Shown here piece by piece: positions 8,108 to 15,237 of a stretch of DNA of 64,000 nt. The translations under genes and the position numbers were made by a program. Source of the DNA: Azospira oryzae (GTDB lineage Bacteria > Pseudomonadota > Gammaproteobacteria > Burkholderiales > Rhodocyclaceae). Within the stretch, counting starts at the first letter, position 1, and each line of letters begins with the position of its first letter. Under the pieces are notes generated by a model that worked only from the letters and a program-made list of their open reading frames with translations, had not been told where the DNA came from and searched no databases. Location of the stretch: assembly GCF_004217225.1 (NCBI RefSeq), contig NZ_SHKM01000001.1:1588137-1652136 (forward strand), given 5' to 3'.

Positions 8108-9478
8108 CTATGCCGCCAGGGGCGGAAACACCACCAGCACCCGCAGGCCGTTGCCTTCCGGCCCCACGCCCAGGCTGAGGGCGGCGCCGTGCAGCTCCGC
8201 CACCCGCTGCACGATGGACAGCCCCAGGCCGGAACCTTCCGCCCGGGCCGGCGCCAGCCGGGTGAAGCGCCCCAGGGCCCGCTCCCGGGCCTCGGCCGGG
8301 ATGCCCGGACCGTCGTCGGCCACCGCCAGCACCACCCGCTCTCCGTCCCGGGCCAGGGACACCCACACATGGCCGCCCTCCCGGGTGTAGCGGATGGCGT
8401 TGTCCACCAGGTTGCGCAGCAGGATGCGCAGCAGGTCCCCATTGCCGGCCAGGGTCAGGCTGCCGTCGCCGTCGCTGCCGGCCAGGTCCAGGGCCAGGTC
8501 CACCTGCCGGGACTGGGCCGCCGGGGCCAGCACGGCGCACACCTCCCGCGCCAGGGGCCGGGGGTCCAGGGGCTGCAGGCTGGCGTTGGCGCCCGGGTCC
8601 AGGCGGGCCAGGGTGAGCAGCTGTTCCACCAGCCGGGCCAGGCGTTCGGTGCCTTCCAGCACATTGAGCAGGGCCCGCTGCCGCACCTCCCCCTCCCCGG
8701 CCCGCAGGGCCACCTGGGCCTGGGTCTTGAGGGCAGCCAGGGGCGTGCGCAGTTCGTGGGCGGCGTTGGCGGTGAACTGGCGCTCGTTGTCCAGCAGACG
8801 GGCGATGCGGGCGAAGAGGCCGTCCAGGGCCTGCACCAGGGGCGCCACTTCCGCCGGCACCGGGCCGCTGCCCAGGGGCTGGGGCGAATCGGGGGGACGC
8901 CGGTCCAGCTGTTCGGCGATGCGGGCCAGGGGCACCAGGCCGCGGCCGACGGCCACCCACAGGGCTGCCGCCAGCAGGGGCAGGCCCAGGATCAGGGGCG
9001 CCAGCAGGCGCATGGCGGCCTCCTGGGCCAGGGCATAGCGGATGTCGTGACTCTGGCCCACCTGCACCTGGCGCAGCCCGTCCCGGCTCCATTCGCTGTA
9101 GAAGCGCCATTCGCCGCCATTCCAGCGGGTTTCGACAAAGCCCTCCACCGCCGTCAGGGGCGTCTGCCCGGCCCCGGCGGAATGGAGGGCCAGCACCGGC
9201 CCCTGGGGGGTGCGGCGCCAGATCTGGAACAGCACTTCGCCGCCGGCGGCGCCGGGAGTGGGCCGCACTTCCACGTGGCCGCTGGTGGGCTCGGTGGCCA
9301 GCAGCAGGCGGGCGGTCTGCTGCAGGTGGGCGTCGAAAATGTCGTCGGCCAGGTCGTGGGCCCGCAGAAAGGCGGCGGCGATGGTGGCCACCCAGATCAG
9401 GGCCGACACGGCCAGCAGCAGCAGGAGCAGGCGGCGGCGCAGGGAATAGGCCGGCGTCGGGCGTTGCACGGCAGCCAT
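8108..9478 (-). CDS. Membrane sensor histidine kinase, QseC/TctE type
   Basis: 456 residues. TM1 (about 17-37) and TM2 (about 158-178) flank a 120-residue periplasmic sensor. A HAMP segment follows, then the HisKA box FTANAAHELRTPLAAL with phospho-acceptor H241, and a HATPase domain with N, G1 (DDGPGIP) and G2 (GSGLGLSIV) boxes. It would autophosphorylate in response to an outside signal and pass phosphate to D54 of the regulator encoded just upstream (9478-10176). The two reading frames share one base, so they are translated as a unit. The signal is unknown; QseC- and PmrB-like kinases share this architecture. Confidence 0.9.
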   Translation of the reverse strand: MAAVQRPTPAYSLRRRLLLLLLAVSALIWVATIAAAFLRAHDLADDIFDAHLQQTARLLLATEPTSGHVEVRPTPGAAGGEVLFQIWRRTPQGPVLALHSAGAGQTPLTAVEGFVETRWNGGEWRFYSEWSRDGLRQVQVGQSHDIRYALAQEAAMRLLAPLILGLPLLAAALWVAVGRGLVPLARIAEQLDRRPPDSPQPLGSGPVPAEVAPLVQALDGLFARIARLLDNERQFTANAAHELRTPLAALKTQAQVALRAGEGEVRQRALLNVLEGTERLARLVEQLLTLARLDPGANASLQPLDPRPLAREVCAVLAPAAQSRQVDLALDLAGSDGDGSLTLAGNGDLLRILLRNLVDNAIRYTREGGHVWVSLARDGERVVLAVADDGPGIPAEARERALGRFTRLAPARAEGSGLGLSIVQRVAELHGAALSLGVGPEGNGLRVLVVFPPLAA

Positions 9479-10176
9479 CAGGACTCCGGCGCCGCGGGCG
9501 CGGCGGACGCCTCCCGGGCCACGGTGTAGCCGACGCCGCGCACGGTGCGGATCAGATCGCTGCCGAACTTGCGCCGCAGGTGGTGGATGTGCACCTCCAC
9601 CGCATTGCTGTCCACCGTCTCGTTCCAGCCGTAGGCGGCCTCCTCCAGCTGGTGCCGGGTCAGCACCCGGCCGGCGGCGGCGAGCAGGGCTTCGAGCAGG
9701 GCGAACTCCCGGGGCGACAGCTCCACCGGCAGCCCTGCCAGCTCCACCCGGCGGGCCGCCGGGTCGAGGCGGATGGCCCCGTGCACCAGCAGCGGCGCCG
9801 CCCGGCCTGCACTGCGGCGGATCAGGGCGCGCAGGCGGGCCGCCACCTCGTCCAGGTCGAAAGGCTTGACCAGGTAGTCGTCGGCGCCGCCGTCCAGGGC
9901 CGAGAGCTTGTCGGGCACCCCGTCCCGGGCGGTCAGCACCAGCACCGGAACCGGGTTGCCGGCAGCGCGGCAGCGGGCCAGCACCTCCTGGCCCGACAGC
10001 TGGGGCAGGTTGAGGTCCAGCACCACGGCGGCAAAGCAGTGGGCCTCGGGGCTGGCGAGGACGGTGGCGGCCTCCTGGCCGTCGCGCAGCCAGTCCACGG
10101 TGAAGCCGGCCTGGCCCAGACCGACCTGGAGCCCGTCTCCCAGCAGGGAATCGTCCTCGACGATGAGGATTCGCAT
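9478..10176 (-). CDS. OmpR-family response regulator, QseB/PmrA-like
   Basis: 232 residues: a receiver domain (acidic D8/D9, phospho-acceptor D54 in VVLDLNLPQ, conserved K in YLVKPFDLDE) and a C-terminal winged helix (about 130-225, with DSNAVEVHIHHLRRKFG). It binds DNA as a phosphorylated dimer and is paired with the kinase gene downstream. The start ATG at 10176 gives the standard receiver N-terminus. The genes it controls cannot be named. No gene of a PmrAB or QseBC regulon adjoins it, although the ArnT-like gene 2.5 kb away would be a suggestive target if this were PmrA-like. Confidence 0.92.
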   Translation of the reverse strand: MRILIVEDDSLLGDGLQVGLGQAGFTVDWLRDGQEAATVLASPEAHCFAAVVLDLNLPQLSGQEVLARCRAAGNPVPVLVLTARDGVPDKLSALDGGADDYLVKPFDLDEVAARLRALIRRSAGRAAPLLVHGAIRLDPAARRVELAGLPVELSPREFALLEALLAAAGRVLTRHQLEEAAYGWNETVDSNAVEVHIHHLRRKFGSDLIRTVRGVGYTVAREASAAPAAPES

Positions 10177-10262: not shown

Positions 10263-12386
10263 ATGACCCCCAGGATGGACAACGCTGCCCGGCAGGACGA
10301 TCCAGAACGCGAGCTTTTGCGCGGCCTGCGGGTGCTGCTGGTGGAGGACGACCCGGTGGCACGCTGCGCCGCCGCCGGCATCCTCAGCCGCCACGTGGGC
10401 ACCCTGTGGGAAGCGGCCGACGGCGACGAGGGCCTGCAGCTGTTCCGCCGGCACCAGCCGGACCTGGTCATTTCCGACATCGTCATGCCCCACCGGGACG
10501 GTCTCTCCCTGGCCCGGGAGATCAAGGCCCAGAGCCCGGCGACGCCGATCGTCATCATCACCTCCCACAGCGACAGCGGCGCCCTGCTCGACGCCATCGA
10601 GATCGGCATCGACCGCTACGTGCTCAAGCCCCTCAAGGCCAGCGCCCTGCTCGAAGCCATGGCCACCTGCGCCCGGGCCGCCCGCCTGGAGTCGGAACAC
10701 CGCCTGGCCACCACCGTCTTTCACGCTTCCAGCGAAGCCATCATGATCACCGATGCGGAAAACCGCATCGTGGACGTCAATCCCGCCTTCACCCGCATCA
10801 CCGGCTTCTCCCGGGGCGAGGTGCTGGGCCGCAATCCCCGCATCCTCCAGTCCGGCATCCAGAGCGAGCACTTCTACCGGGAGATGTGGGCGGCCATCAA
10901 CCAGTACGGCCACTGGCGGGGCGAAATCTGGAACCGGCGGCGCAACGGCGAGCTGTATCCGGAATGGCTGGCGGTGGACCGGGTGCTTTCCCCCGAAGGC
11001 GCCGTGCTCAACTACGTCGCCATGTGGTCGGACATCTCCGAGCGCAAGGAGGCGGAGGCCCGCATCCACTACCTGGCCCACTACGACGCCCTCACCGACC
11101 TGCCCAACCGGGTGCTGTTCAACGACCGCTTCACCCAGGCCCTGATCCACGCCCGCCGCTACGACCAGAGCGTAGCCCTGATGTTCGTGGACCTGGACCG
11201 CTTCAAGGTGGTCAACGACACCCTGGGCCACCGGGTCGGCGACGAGCTGCTGAAGCAGGTGGCCGAGCGCCTGCGCCGCTGCGTGCGCGAGGAGGACACG
11301 GTATCGCGCCAGGGCGGCGACGAGTTCGTGGTGCTGCTGGCCAACCTGGACATGTCCGCCGACGCCGCCGTGGTCTCCGACAAGATCCTCGAGGCCCTGG
11401 CCGAGCCCATGTACTTCGAGGGCCACGAACTGAGCGTCACCTGCTCCATCGGCATCGCCTGCTACCCCAGCGACGGCGCCGACCCGGACACCCTGATGAA
11501 GAACGCCGACCTGGCCATGTACCGGGCCAAGAGCGTGGGCCGCAACAACTACCAGTTCTTCAGCCCCGAGCTGGAACAGGGCGCCCTCACCCGCCTGACC
11601 CTGGAAAACGCCATGCGCCGGGCCCTGGACCGGGACGAGTTCGAACTGCATTACCTGCCCCAGGTGGACAACCCCTCGGGCCGCCTGCTCAGCCTGGAAG
11701 CCCTGATCCGCTGGCAGCATCCGGAGCGGGGCCTGCTCCTGCCCAGCCAGTTCATCCCCCTGGCCGAGGAAAGCGGCCTGGTGCTGCCCATTTCCCTCTG
11801 GGTGCTGCGCCGGGTGGCACGGCAGCTGGCCGACTGGCGGCGGCAGAACCTGACCCTGGTGCCGGTGGCCATCAACCTGTGCGAAGCCCAGCTGCGCCAG
11901 CCCGATTTCGCCGAGGCCCTGGGCCGCATCCTGAGCGAGGAAGGGGTGGAAGGGCGCTGGATCGAGCTGGAATTCACCGAAGGCGCCCTCATGCACGACA
12001 CCGAGCGCAACCTGCGGGTGCTCTCGGCTCTGAAGCGTCTGGGGGTCGGCATCACCCTGGACGACTTCGGCGTCGGCTATTCCAACCTCAACGTCCTGCG
12101 CCGCCTGCCGGTGGATACCCTGAAGATCGACCGCTCCCTGGTCACCGACGTGACCCGTAACGAGGACGACGCGGTGATCGTTGACGCCATCATTTCCATG
12201 GCCCAGTCCATGAACCTCAAGGTGGTGGCCGAGGGCGTGGAAACGGCCGACCAGGCCGGCTTCTTCAAGGCCCGGGCCTGCGCCGAAATCCAGGGCCACT
12301 TCTTCTCCAAGGCCATCGGCGCCGTGGAAGTGGCGGCCATGCTGGGCCACGCCCCGGCCGCCGCCAGCACCTCGTCCCCGGCCTGA
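10263..12386 (+). CDS. Response regulator with PAS, GGDEF and EAL domains (cyclic-di-GMP turnover)
   Basis: 707 residues. In order: receiver (about 20-140, phospho-acceptor D72 in VISDIVMP), PAS (about 150-270), GGDEF (about 280-440) and EAL (about 455-700). The diguanylate cyclase signature GGDEF is intact, with an RxxD inhibition site (REED) five residues before it. The phosphodiesterase side keeps EAL (SLEALIRW), the acidic ELEFTEGALM, DDFGVGYSNL, the Lys of LKIDRSL, AEGVET and EIQGHFFSK. Both activities could therefore be real. A phosphorelay likely sets the balance; its kinase is not adjacent. It would tune surface life and motility, in keeping with the type IV pilus and chemosensory genes in the window. 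Confidence 0.93.
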   Translation: MTPRMDNAARQDDPERELLRGLRVLLVEDDPVARCAAAGILSRHVGTLWEAADGDEGLQLFRRHQPDLVISDIVMPHRDGLSLAREIKAQSPATPIVIITSHSDSGALLDAIEIGIDRYVLKPLKASALLEAMATCARAARLESEHRLATTVFHASSEAIMITDAENRIVDVNPAFTRITGFSRGEVLGRNPRILQSGIQSEHFYREMWAAINQYGHWRGEIWNRRRNGELYPEWLAVDRVLSPEGAVLNYVAMWSDISERKEAEARIHYLAHYDALTDLPNRVLFNDRFTQALIHARRYDQSVALMFVDLDRFKVVNDTLGHRVGDELLKQVAERLRRCVREEDTVSRQGGDEFVVLLANLDMSADAAVVSDKILEALAEPMYFEGHELSVTCSIGIACYPSDGADPDTLMKNADLAMYRAKSVGRNNYQFFSPELEQGALTRLTLENAMRRALDRDEFELHYLPQVDNPSGRLLSLEALIRWQHPERGLLLPSQFIPLAEESGLVLPISLWVLRRVARQLADWRRQNLTLVPVAINLCEAQLRQPDFAEALGRILSEEGVEGRWIELEFTEGALMHDTERNLRVLSALKRLGVGITLDDFGVGYSNLNVLRRLPVDTLKIDRSLVTDVTRNEDDAVIVDAIISMAQSMNLKVVAEGVETADQAGFFKARACAEIQGHFFSKAIGAVEVAAMLGHAPAAASTSSPA

Positions 12387-12447: not shown

Positions 12448-12482
12448 ACTCCATACGCAATCGTATGGAGTGTACGTATAAT
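12448..12482 (+). promoter_or_regulatory. 24-bp perfect palindrome and -10 element of the CoA-transferase gene
   Basis: Arms ACTCCATACG (12448-12457) and CGTATGGAGT (12462-12471) surround CAAT. A consensus TATAAT -10 lies at 12477-12482, and the palindrome covers the place of the -35 element. The core CATACG-CAAY-CGTATG recurs before the convergent MFS gene at 15222-15237, so one dimeric regulator (TetR- or GntR-like by geometry) probably controls both. Confidence 0.75.
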
Positions 12483-12525
12483 GTTGCGCGACAAAGATTC
12501 CCCGCGATCTAAAAAAGGAGACAGC

Positions 12526-13821
12526 ATGGACCTGCAGGCCCTGTACCAGGAAAAACTCGTAACTCCCGCCGACGCCATCGCCTGCGTCAGGAATGGCGAC
12601 ACCATCGTCGTTCCCACCGGGGTCGGCGAACCGCCCGCCCTGCTCACCGCTCTCTCCGATGCCCGGCGCAACTACCGGGACGTCACCGTCTCCCAGATCC
12701 TGGCCCTGCGCAAATACGGCTACATCGACCCGGAAACCCGGGACCACGTGCGCCACACCGCCTACTTCTTCGGCGGCGCCACCCGCCCCGGCGGCCAGGC
12801 CGGCTGGGTCGATTTCATCCCCAACTATTTCGCCGAGCTGCCCCAGCTGATCGAGCGCGGCCTGTCCCCCGCCGACGTGGTCTTCACCATGGCCTCGCCC
12901 ATGGACGAGCACGGCTACTTCGCCCTCTCCCTGGCCGCCGACTACACCATGGCCGCCGTGAAGAAGGCCCGGGCCATCGTCCTCGAAGTGAACCCCAACG
13001 TGCCCTTCGCCTACGGCGACTGTTACGTGCACATCTCCAAGGTCGCCGCCCTGGTGGAAAGCAGCGACCCGGTGCTGGAAGTGGGCCTGCCCACCATCGG
13101 CCCGGTGCAGGAAGCCATCGGCAAATACGTGGCCGACCTGATCGAGGACGGCTCCACCCTGCAGATCGGCTACGGCGGCATTCCCGACGCCGTGGTGATG
13201 CAGCTCCAGCACAAGCACGACCTGGGCATCCACACCGAGATGATCGGCGACGGCATCCTTTCCCTGATCGAGTCCGGCGCCGTCACCAACAAGAAGAAGA
13301 CCTTCATGCCCGGCAAGTCCGTGGCCACCTTCGCCCTGGGATCGAACAAGCTGTACAAGTTCATGCATCGCAATCCGGCCCTGGAAATGCATCCGGTGGA
13401 ATTCACCAACGATCCCTACATCGCCGCCCGCAACGACAAGCTGATCGCCATCAACGCCACCATGCAGGTGGACCTGCTGGGCCAGTGCGGCTCCGAGAGC
13501 CTGGGCTTCTCCCCCTACTCCGGCACCGGCGGCCAGGCCGACTTCGTGCGCGCCGCCAACCGCTCCAAGGACGGCAAGGCCTTCATCGTGGTGCCCTCCA
13601 CCGCCAAGGACGACACCATCTCCCGCATCGTCCCCACCCTGACCCCGGGCACCCACGTCACCACCAGCAAGAACGACATCAACTACGTGGTCACCGAGTA
13701 CGGCGTCGCCCAGCTGCGCGGCAAGAGCGCCAAGCAGCGGGTGGAAGCCCTGATCGGCATCGCCCACCCCAACTTCCGCAATGAACTGCGGGAAGCGGCT
13801 AAAAAGATGAACCTGCTCTAA
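12526..13821 (+). CDS. Acetyl-CoA hydrolase/transferase family CoA-transferase (4-hydroxybutyrate CoA-transferase type)
   Basis: 431 residues, the usual length for this single-chain family. Conserved features are GYGGIPDAV (215-223), the HTEM motif with E238, ESLGFSPYSGTGGQADFVR, then SRIVPTL and TEYGVAQLRG near the C-terminus. E238 falls where, from memory, the catalytic glutamate of clostridial 4-hydroxybutyrate CoA-transferase lies. It moves CoA between acetyl-CoA (or propionyl-CoA) and another short acid. An excellent ribosome site (AAAAAAGGAG) selects this ATG over an upstream in-frame one at 12481. The shared operator ties it to the MFS transporter, which suggests uptake and activation of one carboxylic acid. 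The true acid is unknown. Confidence 0.85.
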   Translation: MDLQALYQEKLVTPADAIACVRNGDTIVVPTGVGEPPALLTALSDARRNYRDVTVSQILALRKYGYIDPETRDHVRHTAYFFGGATRPGGQAGWVDFIPNYFAELPQLIERGLSPADVVFTMASPMDEHGYFALSLAADYTMAAVKKARAIVLEVNPNVPFAYGDCYVHISKVAALVESSDPVLEVGLPTIGPVQEAIGKYVADLIEDGSTLQIGYGGIPDAVVMQLQHKHDLGIHTEMIGDGILSLIESGAVTNKKKTFMPGKSVATFALGSNKLYKFMHRNPALEMHPVEFTNDPYIAARNDKLIAINATMQVDLLGQCGSESLGFSPYSGTGGQADFVRAANRSKDGKAFIVVPSTAKDDTISRIVPTLTPGTHVTTSKNDINYVVTEYGVAQLRGKSAKQRVEALIGIAHPNFRNELREAAKKMNLL

Positions 13822-13867
13822 AACGAAAGCCCCGGCAGCGCAGGCTGGCGGGGCTCGCTGGAGCGAC

Positions 13868-13895
13868 AGGGCGCGGTCACCACCGCGCCCTTTTT
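13868..13895 (+). terminator. Rho-independent terminator of the CoA-transferase gene
   Basis: A stem AGGGCGCGGT / ACCGCGCCCT with loop CACC is followed by a short T run. It reaches to the stop codon of the convergent MFS gene. Confidence 0.8.
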
Positions 13896-15178
13896 CATGG
13901 CCCCGGCCGGGGCGCCTGCCAGATGTTGCGGCAGCCCGTCTCCTTGACCCAGAAGCTGGCGACGAAGCCGATGCAGGCGGCGGCGGCCATGCAGGCCATG
14001 CCGACGCGGAAGGTGTCCGGCCCATACACGCGCACGCCGTTGGCCAGGGTGCCGTCCCACACCTGGTCCATGGCCCAGCCGGCCAGGGGCTGCAGCAGGG
14101 CGCCGGCGAGGAAGCCGCCCATGTTGGTGACGCTGGTGGACATGCCGGACAGCATGGGCGGATTGACCTCCTTGGCGCAGGCCCAGGTGAGGGCGAAGCT
14201 GGCCGTGGTCAGGCCCATGAGGCCGAACAGGCAGTAGGTGGCCGCCAGGGGCAGGCGGATGTTGGTCAGCCAGAACAGCCACAGCAGACAGTAAAGGAAG
14301 GCCCCGGCGATGACCACCGGCTTGCGCTTGCCGAGCCGGTCCGAGAGGGTGCCGATGAAAAAGCAGCCCAGGGCGAAGCCGGCGAAATAGAGGGAAAGAT
14401 GGGAGGAGGCCTGGGCCCGGGTCAGCTCATGCACCCGCATCAGGTAGGGCGTGGCCCACAGGCCGGCGAAGGAGAAGAAGCTGCCGGCCAGGCCGAAATT
14501 GACCACCACCGCCGGCCAGGTGGAGCGGTTCTTCAGCACCGAAGCCAGGCCGCCGAAGATCACCGTGCGGTCGAAGCGGGGCCGCTCGCCGCCGCCGTCC
14601 TTGACGAAGAACCAGCAGGCCACGCCCAGAAGGGCCGAGAGGGCGCCGGCGCCGACGAAAATGCCGCGCCAGGAAATGCTCTGGGCCAGCAGGGAAAGGG
14701 GCGCGCCGGCCAGCACCGAGCCCAGGTTGCCCACCAGCATGGAGGCCCCCACCAGGGTGGCGAAGCGCCGCTCGTCGAAATTGACGGCGATGATCTTGAG
14801 CATGGCGATAAAGGTCACCGACACCCCCAGGCCCACCAGGGTGCGCCCCACCAGGGCCTCGTTGAGGGTGTCGGCGAGGCCGAAGAGAACGCTGCCCGCC
14901 GCCGCCACCAGGCCACCGAGGAAGAGGATGCGCCGCGGCCCCAGGGTATCCACCAGGACGCCGGTGGGCACCTGCATGATGGTGTAGACGTAGAAATAGG
15001 TGGCCGCCAGGGCGCCGAGGGACGCCGCCGTGGTCTGGAAGGCCAGGGTCAGGTCGTGGGCGATGCCCGCCGGGGCGAAGCGGTGGAAGAAGGACAGCAT
15101 GTAGGCGGCGATGACCACCGCCAGGGTCACGGCACGGGCCGTGCGGGCGGAAGAACCGCCGCTTTGATGTGGGGGCAT
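13895..15178 (-). CDS. MFS transporter, probable organic-acid carrier
   Basis: A 427-residue twelve-helix major facilitator. The loop 2-3 motif lies around DTLGPRRILF and the matching loop 8-9 around SDRLGKRKPV. It is convergent with the CoA-transferase gene, and the two share the CATACG-CAAY-CGTATG operator. The natural reading is that it imports or exports the acid handled by that enzyme; this is inference. The ATG at 15178 has AGGAGAGG upstream. The substrate is not predictable from sequence. Confidence 0.85.
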   Translation of the reverse strand: MPPHQSGGSSARTARAVTLAVVIAAYMLSFFHRFAPAGIAHDLTLAFQTTAASLGALAATYFYVYTIMQVPTGVLVDTLGPRRILFLGGLVAAAGSVLFGLADTLNEALVGRTLVGLGVSVTFIAMLKIIAVNFDERRFATLVGASMLVGNLGSVLAGAPLSLLAQSISWRGIFVGAGALSALLGVACWFFVKDGGGERPRFDRTVIFGGLASVLKNRSTWPAVVVNFGLAGSFFSFAGLWATPYLMRVHELTRAQASSHLSLYFAGFALGCFFIGTLSDRLGKRKPVVIAGAFLYCLLWLFWLTNIRLPLAATYCLFGLMGLTTASFALTWACAKEVNPPMLSGMSTSVTNMGGFLAGALLQPLAGWAMDQVWDGTLANGVRVYGPDTFRVGMACMAAAACIGFVASFWVKETGCRNIWQAPRPGP

Positions 15179-15221
15179 TTATGCCTCTCCTCTTGTCTCC
15201 TTTGGGGGAACGGCATCGTAG

Positions 15222-15237
15222 CATACGCAACCGTATG
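15222..15237 (-). promoter_or_regulatory. Palindromic operator before the MFS gene
   Basis: CATACG and CGTATG around CAAC form a perfect 6-4-6 repeat, the same core as at 12452-12467. On the minus strand an extended -10 (TGC then TACGAT) follows one base after the palindrome, so a bound protein would block or contact RNA polymerase. The MFS ATG is 44 bases further on. Confidence 0.7.

Follow-up and report, generated by a model that had tools for sequence, protein, structure and literature searches.

The question raised by this locus is which regulator reads two palindromes with identical arms that occur in a stretch of 64,000 nucleotides from Azospira oryzae (contig NZ_SHKM01000001.1, hereafter the window), one upstream of a coenzyme A (CoA)-transferase gene and the other upstream of a gene for a transporter of the major facilitator superfamily (MFS), and which further genes answer to the same signal. 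Comparison with the whole genome and with related genomes indicates that both palindromes are very probably operators of a single TetR-family repressor encoded at C1:542073-542657 of the same genome (G000), 1.06 Mb from the window, which is predicted to govern acyl-CoA genes and to be released from DNA by acyl-CoA.

The CoA-transferase gene (12526-13821, +) and the MFS gene (13895-15178, -) converge and the two palindromes are separated by 2.8 kb. Upstream of the CoA-transferase gene a 24-bp perfect palindrome, ACTCCATACG-CAAT-CGTATGGAGT, assigned to neither strand, extends over 12448-12471, and its 16-nucleotide core CATACGCAATCGTATG (12452-12467) lies 58 bp 5' of the start. The second core, CATACGCAACCGTATG (15222-15237, likewise strandless), is located 43 bp 5' of the MFS start codon. 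Both show 0 mismatches to the pattern CATACG-N4-CGTATG, with perfect 6-bp arms that are identical between the copies. The original prediction, which had described two genes facing each other under one common type of palindromic operator, was thus borne out in its sites, gene orientation and shared operator, both copies being kept in the sister genome (G001). The CAAY centre that it had included in the motif was rejected, since the central 4 bp vary among the TetR-promoter sites described below and read CACT and TAAC in G001. Within the window a search at up to 3 mismatches was a weak test, as 7 of 100 shuffled sequences also returned at least two matches.

The proposed genome-wide search for the 16-bp motif was carried out on G000 (3,450,622 bases) with the reversed pattern as control. 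The exact arms occurred at the two window sites only (control, 0), which makes the exact pair notable. At up to 1 mismatch 8 matches were found against 3 for the control, while the 27 matches at up to 2 mismatches were at background level (control, 32) and were rejected as evidence. One of the sites with up to 1 mismatch, at C1:542032 (score 25.1 with the weight matrix described below), falls between etfB and the TetR-family gene, which is divergent from an etfB-etfA-(membrane protein)-acyl-CoA dehydrogenase cluster and whose product has an N-terminal helix-turn-helix (PF00440, 43.4 bits against a cut-off of 24).

The tie between the motif and this regulator recurred in other genomes. In 41 relatives, 15 TetR orthologs share 52% identity or more, and all of them have a site with up to 1 mismatch within about 115 bp upstream; no such site was found at three TetR genes of lower identity (49, 38 and 32%) or at 12 distant TetR loci. 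The 250 bp upstream of 80 named orthologs contained an exact site in 31 cases, a one-mismatch site in 42 and a two-mismatch site in the remaining 7 (73 of 80 at up to 1 mismatch); over the same loci, 108 sites with up to 1 mismatch were counted in the TetR upstream regions against 12 in 828,666 other positions. These sites are mostly arranged in tandem pairs, 41 of 75 spacings measuring 21-22 bp, about two helical turns; a flanking G accompanies all 108, and the resulting consensus is C[A/G]TACG-N4-CGTATG (CRTACG-N4-CGTATG). Across the family the exact motif returned 88 sites in 58 of 121 genomes, and the reversed control 5 sites in 5. The TetR promoter carries the signature of autoregulation and its product is likely a self-regulated repressor, in agreement with the expectation that the regulator would lie outside the window and control its own gene.

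A weight matrix was constructed from 80 unique TetR-promoter sites of other genomes, none of them from G000, and applied to the window. The palindrome at the CoA-transferase gene scored 30.0 bits and that at the MFS gene 19.8, the third-best place reaching 7.3; in 30 random sequences of 64 kb the best score had a mean of 6.4 and a maximum of 19.9.

Upstream of the CoA-transferase gene a probable -10 box, TATAAT (12477-12482, +), lies 9 bp 3' of the operator core and is kept in G001, and the -35 position, which has no consensus match, would fall under the palindrome. A consensus promoter scan found no complete sigma-70 promoter at either gene, in the case of the CoA-transferase because the -35 is poor. 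The overlap of both palindromes with a promoter, as originally predicted, therefore stands for the CoA-transferase by virtue of its conserved box and is plausible for the MFS gene. Orthologs of the CoA-transferase (E <= 1e-110) were detected in 43 of 150 family genomes, 42 of them full-length after omission of a partial copy in G018. In 18 of these 42, representing 11 genera, the 400 bp upstream contain a site with a score of 14 or more, mostly at 73-77 bp from the start; the same threshold was reached in 1 of 2,100 shuffled upstream sequences and in none of 42 stretches taken from inside genes. A TATAAT-like box is located 7-9 bp 3' of the operator in 15 of the 18, which puts the operator over the -35/spacer region, where repressors usually bind.

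The CoA-transferase itself (431 aa; PF13336, PF02550) belongs to the acetyl-CoA hydrolase/transferase family and is of the 4-hydroxybutyrate CoA-transferase type. Its best solved relatives are the 4-hydroxybutyrate CoA-transferases 3eh7 and 3gk7. It is similar over the full length to 3gk7 and to butyryl-CoA:acetate CoA-transferase, and its Glu238 is aligned with Glu238 of 3gk7, which we take to be the catalytic residue. The score against the butyryl-CoA:acetate CoA-transferase model TIGR03948 (303.2) is below the cut-off of 674.8, so that the substrate is not readable from the family. Between the convergent genes a terminator-like stem with a T tail occurs at 13868-13891 (+), a weak candidate given that 5 such elements were found in the window and 2.5 are expected.

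The remaining sites with up to 1 mismatch in G000 lie between the thioesterase gene and the gene for electron-transfer flavoprotein (ETF):quinone oxidoreductase (ETF-QO) (C1:532525, score 21.4), before the gene for 3-hydroxybutyryl-CoA dehydrogenase (HBD) (C1:562593, 24.6), before a short-chain dehydrogenase/reductase (SDR) gene (C3:165350, 23.5) and, more weakly, before a DUF485-ActP acetate symporter operon (C2:826504, 14.4) and between an OmpA-domain gene and gyrA (CATACGGCAATGTATGG, C1:144900, 12.0). Genes around the sites were called with a home-made gene caller. Family searches back thioesterase, ETF-QO, 3HCDH, SDR, DUF485, SSF symporter, OmpA and ETF as site neighbours; the acetoacetate-CoA ligase encoded directly 3' of the thioesterase gene, HBD and the cation/acetate symporter ActP pass their NCBIfam cut-offs, the acyl-CoA dehydrogenase of the etfBA operon gives a superfamily match that stays under every cut-off, and gyrA was assigned by eye. 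Seven of the 8 sites, including both in the window, are retained in G001 at up to 1 mismatch with changed centres, the SDR site not being found there.

The same beta-oxidation target genes bear sites in relatives, where enoyl-CoA hydratase, MaoC-like hydratase, dienoyl-CoA reductase, etfB, HBD and ETF-QO were named by eye from N-terminal sequence. Sites with up to 1 mismatch lacking a recognisable beta-oxidation gene nearby (L242, L244, L250, L253-L255, L257, L258, L260, L264, L265, L267, L271, L272 and L275, among others) were not counted as targets, so that part of such sites in relatives represents background; one site inside a gene (L246) was also left out. Taken at the level of sequence, the motif appears to mark some six or seven promoters in G000, a larger regulon devoted to beta-oxidation and short-chain acyl-CoA metabolism. 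The actP-operon site is present in both Azospira genomes (C7:80539 in G001), which suggests that short-chain acid uptake is part of this regulon. The ompA/gyrA site is identical in the two genomes (C11:73632 in G001), and neither of its neighbours suits a beta-oxidation regulon. Separately, the extended motif gave 15 forward matches in G009 against 6 in the control, some of them near FadJ-like and dienoyl-CoA-reductase-like genes (L249-L258, L275), which may point to a more extensive regulon in that genus.

The structure of the regulator was considered through its ortholog from Azospira sp. I13, the closest among the named genomes (90% identity). Its predicted model comprises 10 helices (predicted local distance difference test, pLDDT, 84.4) and its Foldseek matches are TetR proteins, with FadR of Bacillus halodurans (5gpc, about 19% identity) at the top and acyl-CoA-bound FasR among the next; the match to FadR is consistent with a fatty-acid regulator.

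Several observations weigh against the assignment of both palindromes to this repressor. No operator was found at 24 of the 42 CoA-transferase orthologs, including that of the congener G002, which has the TetR gene, and the TetR gene is present in all 18 operator-bearing genomes yet also in 21 of the 24 operator-free ones. Among genomes with a full-length CoA-transferase ortholog, the operator occurs in 18 of 39 with TetR and in 0 of 3 without; TetR presence was rejected as a criterion for judging the operator, the co-occurrence having no power because nearly all genomes compared possess TetR. The likeness of the fold is unspecific, with template modelling (TM) scores of 0.6-0.7 and many TetR proteins close behind, and the protein might act as an activator instead of a repressor, which is not the reading we favour. 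The MFS site lacks the flanking G of the TetR-promoter sites, as ETF-QO sites often do too; its leader down to the start codon is nearly as conserved in G001 (38 of 43 positions) as the site itself (15 of 16); and, taken singly, it is within reach of chance, because its score lies just under the random maximum.

The last two of these points, together with the presence of the site in 2 of 18 MFS homologs examined, both from Azospira (G000 and G001), and its absence upstream of the other 16, would favour an explanation in which the CoA-transferase site is a true TetR operator and the MFS palindrome a chance or marginal match outside the regulon. We consider this unlikely, as the 3.45-Mb genome contains just two copies with exact arms, the MFS site and its partner 2.8 kb away, the counterpart of the MFS site in G001 (CATACGTAACCGTATG) keeps all 12 arm bases despite a changed centre, and the flanks of the MFS site are like those of ETF-QO sites. 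The MFS gene is instead a putative regulon member, recent and less certain because its site is confined to two Azospira genomes and the leader is about equally conserved. The transporter (427 aa; PF07690, E 1.3e-45) reaches the cut-off of none of the 25 NCBIfam models listed and, among proteins of solved structure, is distantly related to DgoT, sialin and SLC37A4. No MFS homolog was found around the CoA-transferase in G014, G010, G002, G059, G061 and G126. Conservation in relatives applies to the CoA-transferase operator and, for the MFS one, extends to G001 only, and the idea that the two genes jointly serve uptake and CoA activation of one acid was not upheld, the former operator being widespread and the latter missing from most homologs. 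The notion of a regulator confined to these two genes and to one acid could draw on the location of both exact-arm copies in the genome; such a two-gene regulon was rejected and is scarcely credible, since sites with up to 1 mismatch stand at beta-oxidation promoters, score above the MFS site and recur at the same gene set in relatives.

Control of the CoA-transferase through the palindrome by the adjacent two-component system (8108-10176) or by the GGDEF/EAL response regulator (10263-12386) is very improbable. A response regulator and a kinase adjoin the CoA-transferase gene in G000, G001, G002 and G014, as judged by eye, but G002 has the same neighbours without the motif, and in 73 of 80 loci the motif goes with the promoter of the distant TetR gene itself. 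In three of the four genomes with this neighbourhood the regulator/kinase pair is separated from the CoA-transferase by a large GGDEF/EAL response regulator. Finally, the regulator might be the known FadP or PsrA, so that a described regulon would have been met in a new genus; according to passages of PMC5343134 and PMC12543098, FadP is the TetR-family protein by which betaproteobacteria regulate the degradation of fatty acids. This is rather improbable, since a passage of PMC10304680 gives the PsrA motif as G/CAAAC(N2-4)GTTTG/C, unlike CRTACG-N4-CGTATG, and the TetR profile finds relatives in few genomes of the order (5 of 120, see below), whereas FadP is proposed in one of those passages for most Burkholderiales species.

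The single TetR-family repressor that we favour can be placed among known systems. FadP was reportedly defined in the comparative-genomics paper of Kazakov et al. 2009. Passages of PMC5343134 and PMC12543098 report it for Ralstonia, Burkholderia and Comamonadaceae, where it controls how fatty acids are degraded, and it shares with the Azospira protein the TetR family, the betaproteobacterial setting, several beta-oxidation operons and a presumed repressor role; it differs in being reported for three taxa without Rhodocyclales, whereas the Azospira TetR has few close relatives outside its own family. The same passages name no regulator for Rhodocyclales and give no letters of the FadP motif. 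PsrA of gammaproteobacteria is likewise a self-regulated TetR protein with fatty-acid degradation targets and differs in its motif, as quoted above from the PMC10304680 passage. Bacillus FadR, a TetR-type regulator of fatty-acid degradation and the best structural match, is distant in sequence, its model NF053878 scoring 35.6 against a cut-off of 200. PA3973 of Pseudomonas aeruginosa resembles the Azospira system in its tandem palindromes in its own promoter and its adjoining acyl-CoA dehydrogenase and thioesterase genes, but its motif is SAAGRNMTGAACG (both from a passage of PMC9736018), and BadR of Aromatoleum, in the excerpt consulted, is of MarR type with the unlike motif CAAN4TTG. No account of such a regulator was found in the PMC literature, whose coverage of subscription papers is partial, so that an earlier description is possible. 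Most likely, the Azospira TetR is a FadP/PsrA/FadR-like regulator, new as an individual system and of a kind already known.

Beyond the family close relatives are few: of 120 genomes of the order searched with the TetR profile, 5 contained one at E <= 1e-20, and 3 of these 5 belong to the regulator's own family. Azospirillum plasmids encode homologs of about 45% identity. Four were examined, and in those of A. brasilense and A. argentinense GATACG-CTGC-CGTATGG (score 20.3) precedes the TetR gene by 34 bp, a site of this type not being found at the other two; the shared operator hints at transfer or at a much older regulator. The two site-bearing genes (L367 3986-4552, L371 2986-3549) adjoin malonyl-CoA synthase. 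On plasmid pBcn842-1 of Burkholderia cenocepacia, a 39.5% identical TetR gene (L368 3971-4579) adjoins etfAB and an acyl-CoA dehydrogenase gene and has a different long palindrome upstream, CATACACATACGTATGTGTATG, which might be the operator of this regulator clade in diverged form. The gene of a 32% identical TetR in G016:C80 (L067) is preceded by TCCGTACACTAGTGTATTG, a palindrome whose arms are different.

From the motif, its tie to the TetR promoter, the gene set, the conservation and the geometry of operator and -10 box, we infer binding, repression and a ligand as follows. Without substrate, a TetR dimer would sit on C[A/G]TACG-N4-CGTATG over the -35/spacer region beside the -10 box and block RNA polymerase. 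When fatty or short-chain acids enter the cell, an acyl-CoA, perhaps of C4, would bind the repressor, which would leave the DNA; the leaning of the targets towards C4 compounds suggests acids like butyrate. ETF, acyl-CoA dehydrogenase, ETF-QO, thioesterase/acetoacetate-CoA ligase, HBD, SDR and CoA-transferase would then be expressed jointly. The acetate symporter operon would probably join them, as would the MFS carrier in Azospira.

On balance, we lean towards a broader proposal, namely that this protein represents a TetR-type master repressor, so far undescribed, that controls ETF-linked beta-oxidation together with C2-C4 acyl-CoA metabolism and is conserved through Rhodocyclales (Azospira, Dechloromonas, Accumulibacter, Zoogloea, Rhodocyclus, Sulfuritalea). 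It would replace FadP/PsrA in this group, may have moved between the group and Azospirillum, and would couple CoA activation of short-chain acids to their oxidation. Rhodocyclales-type bacteria are important for denitrification and phosphorus removal. The analysis names a candidate regulator of fatty-acid and short-chain acyl-CoA metabolism in this well-studied environmental group, along with a candidate operator and candidate targets, and places the widespread CoA-transferase, whose substrate is uncertain, in a putative physiological context. If true, the proposal would be relevant to the way in which polyphosphate and polyhydroxyalkanoate (PHA) accumulators in wastewater switch substrates.

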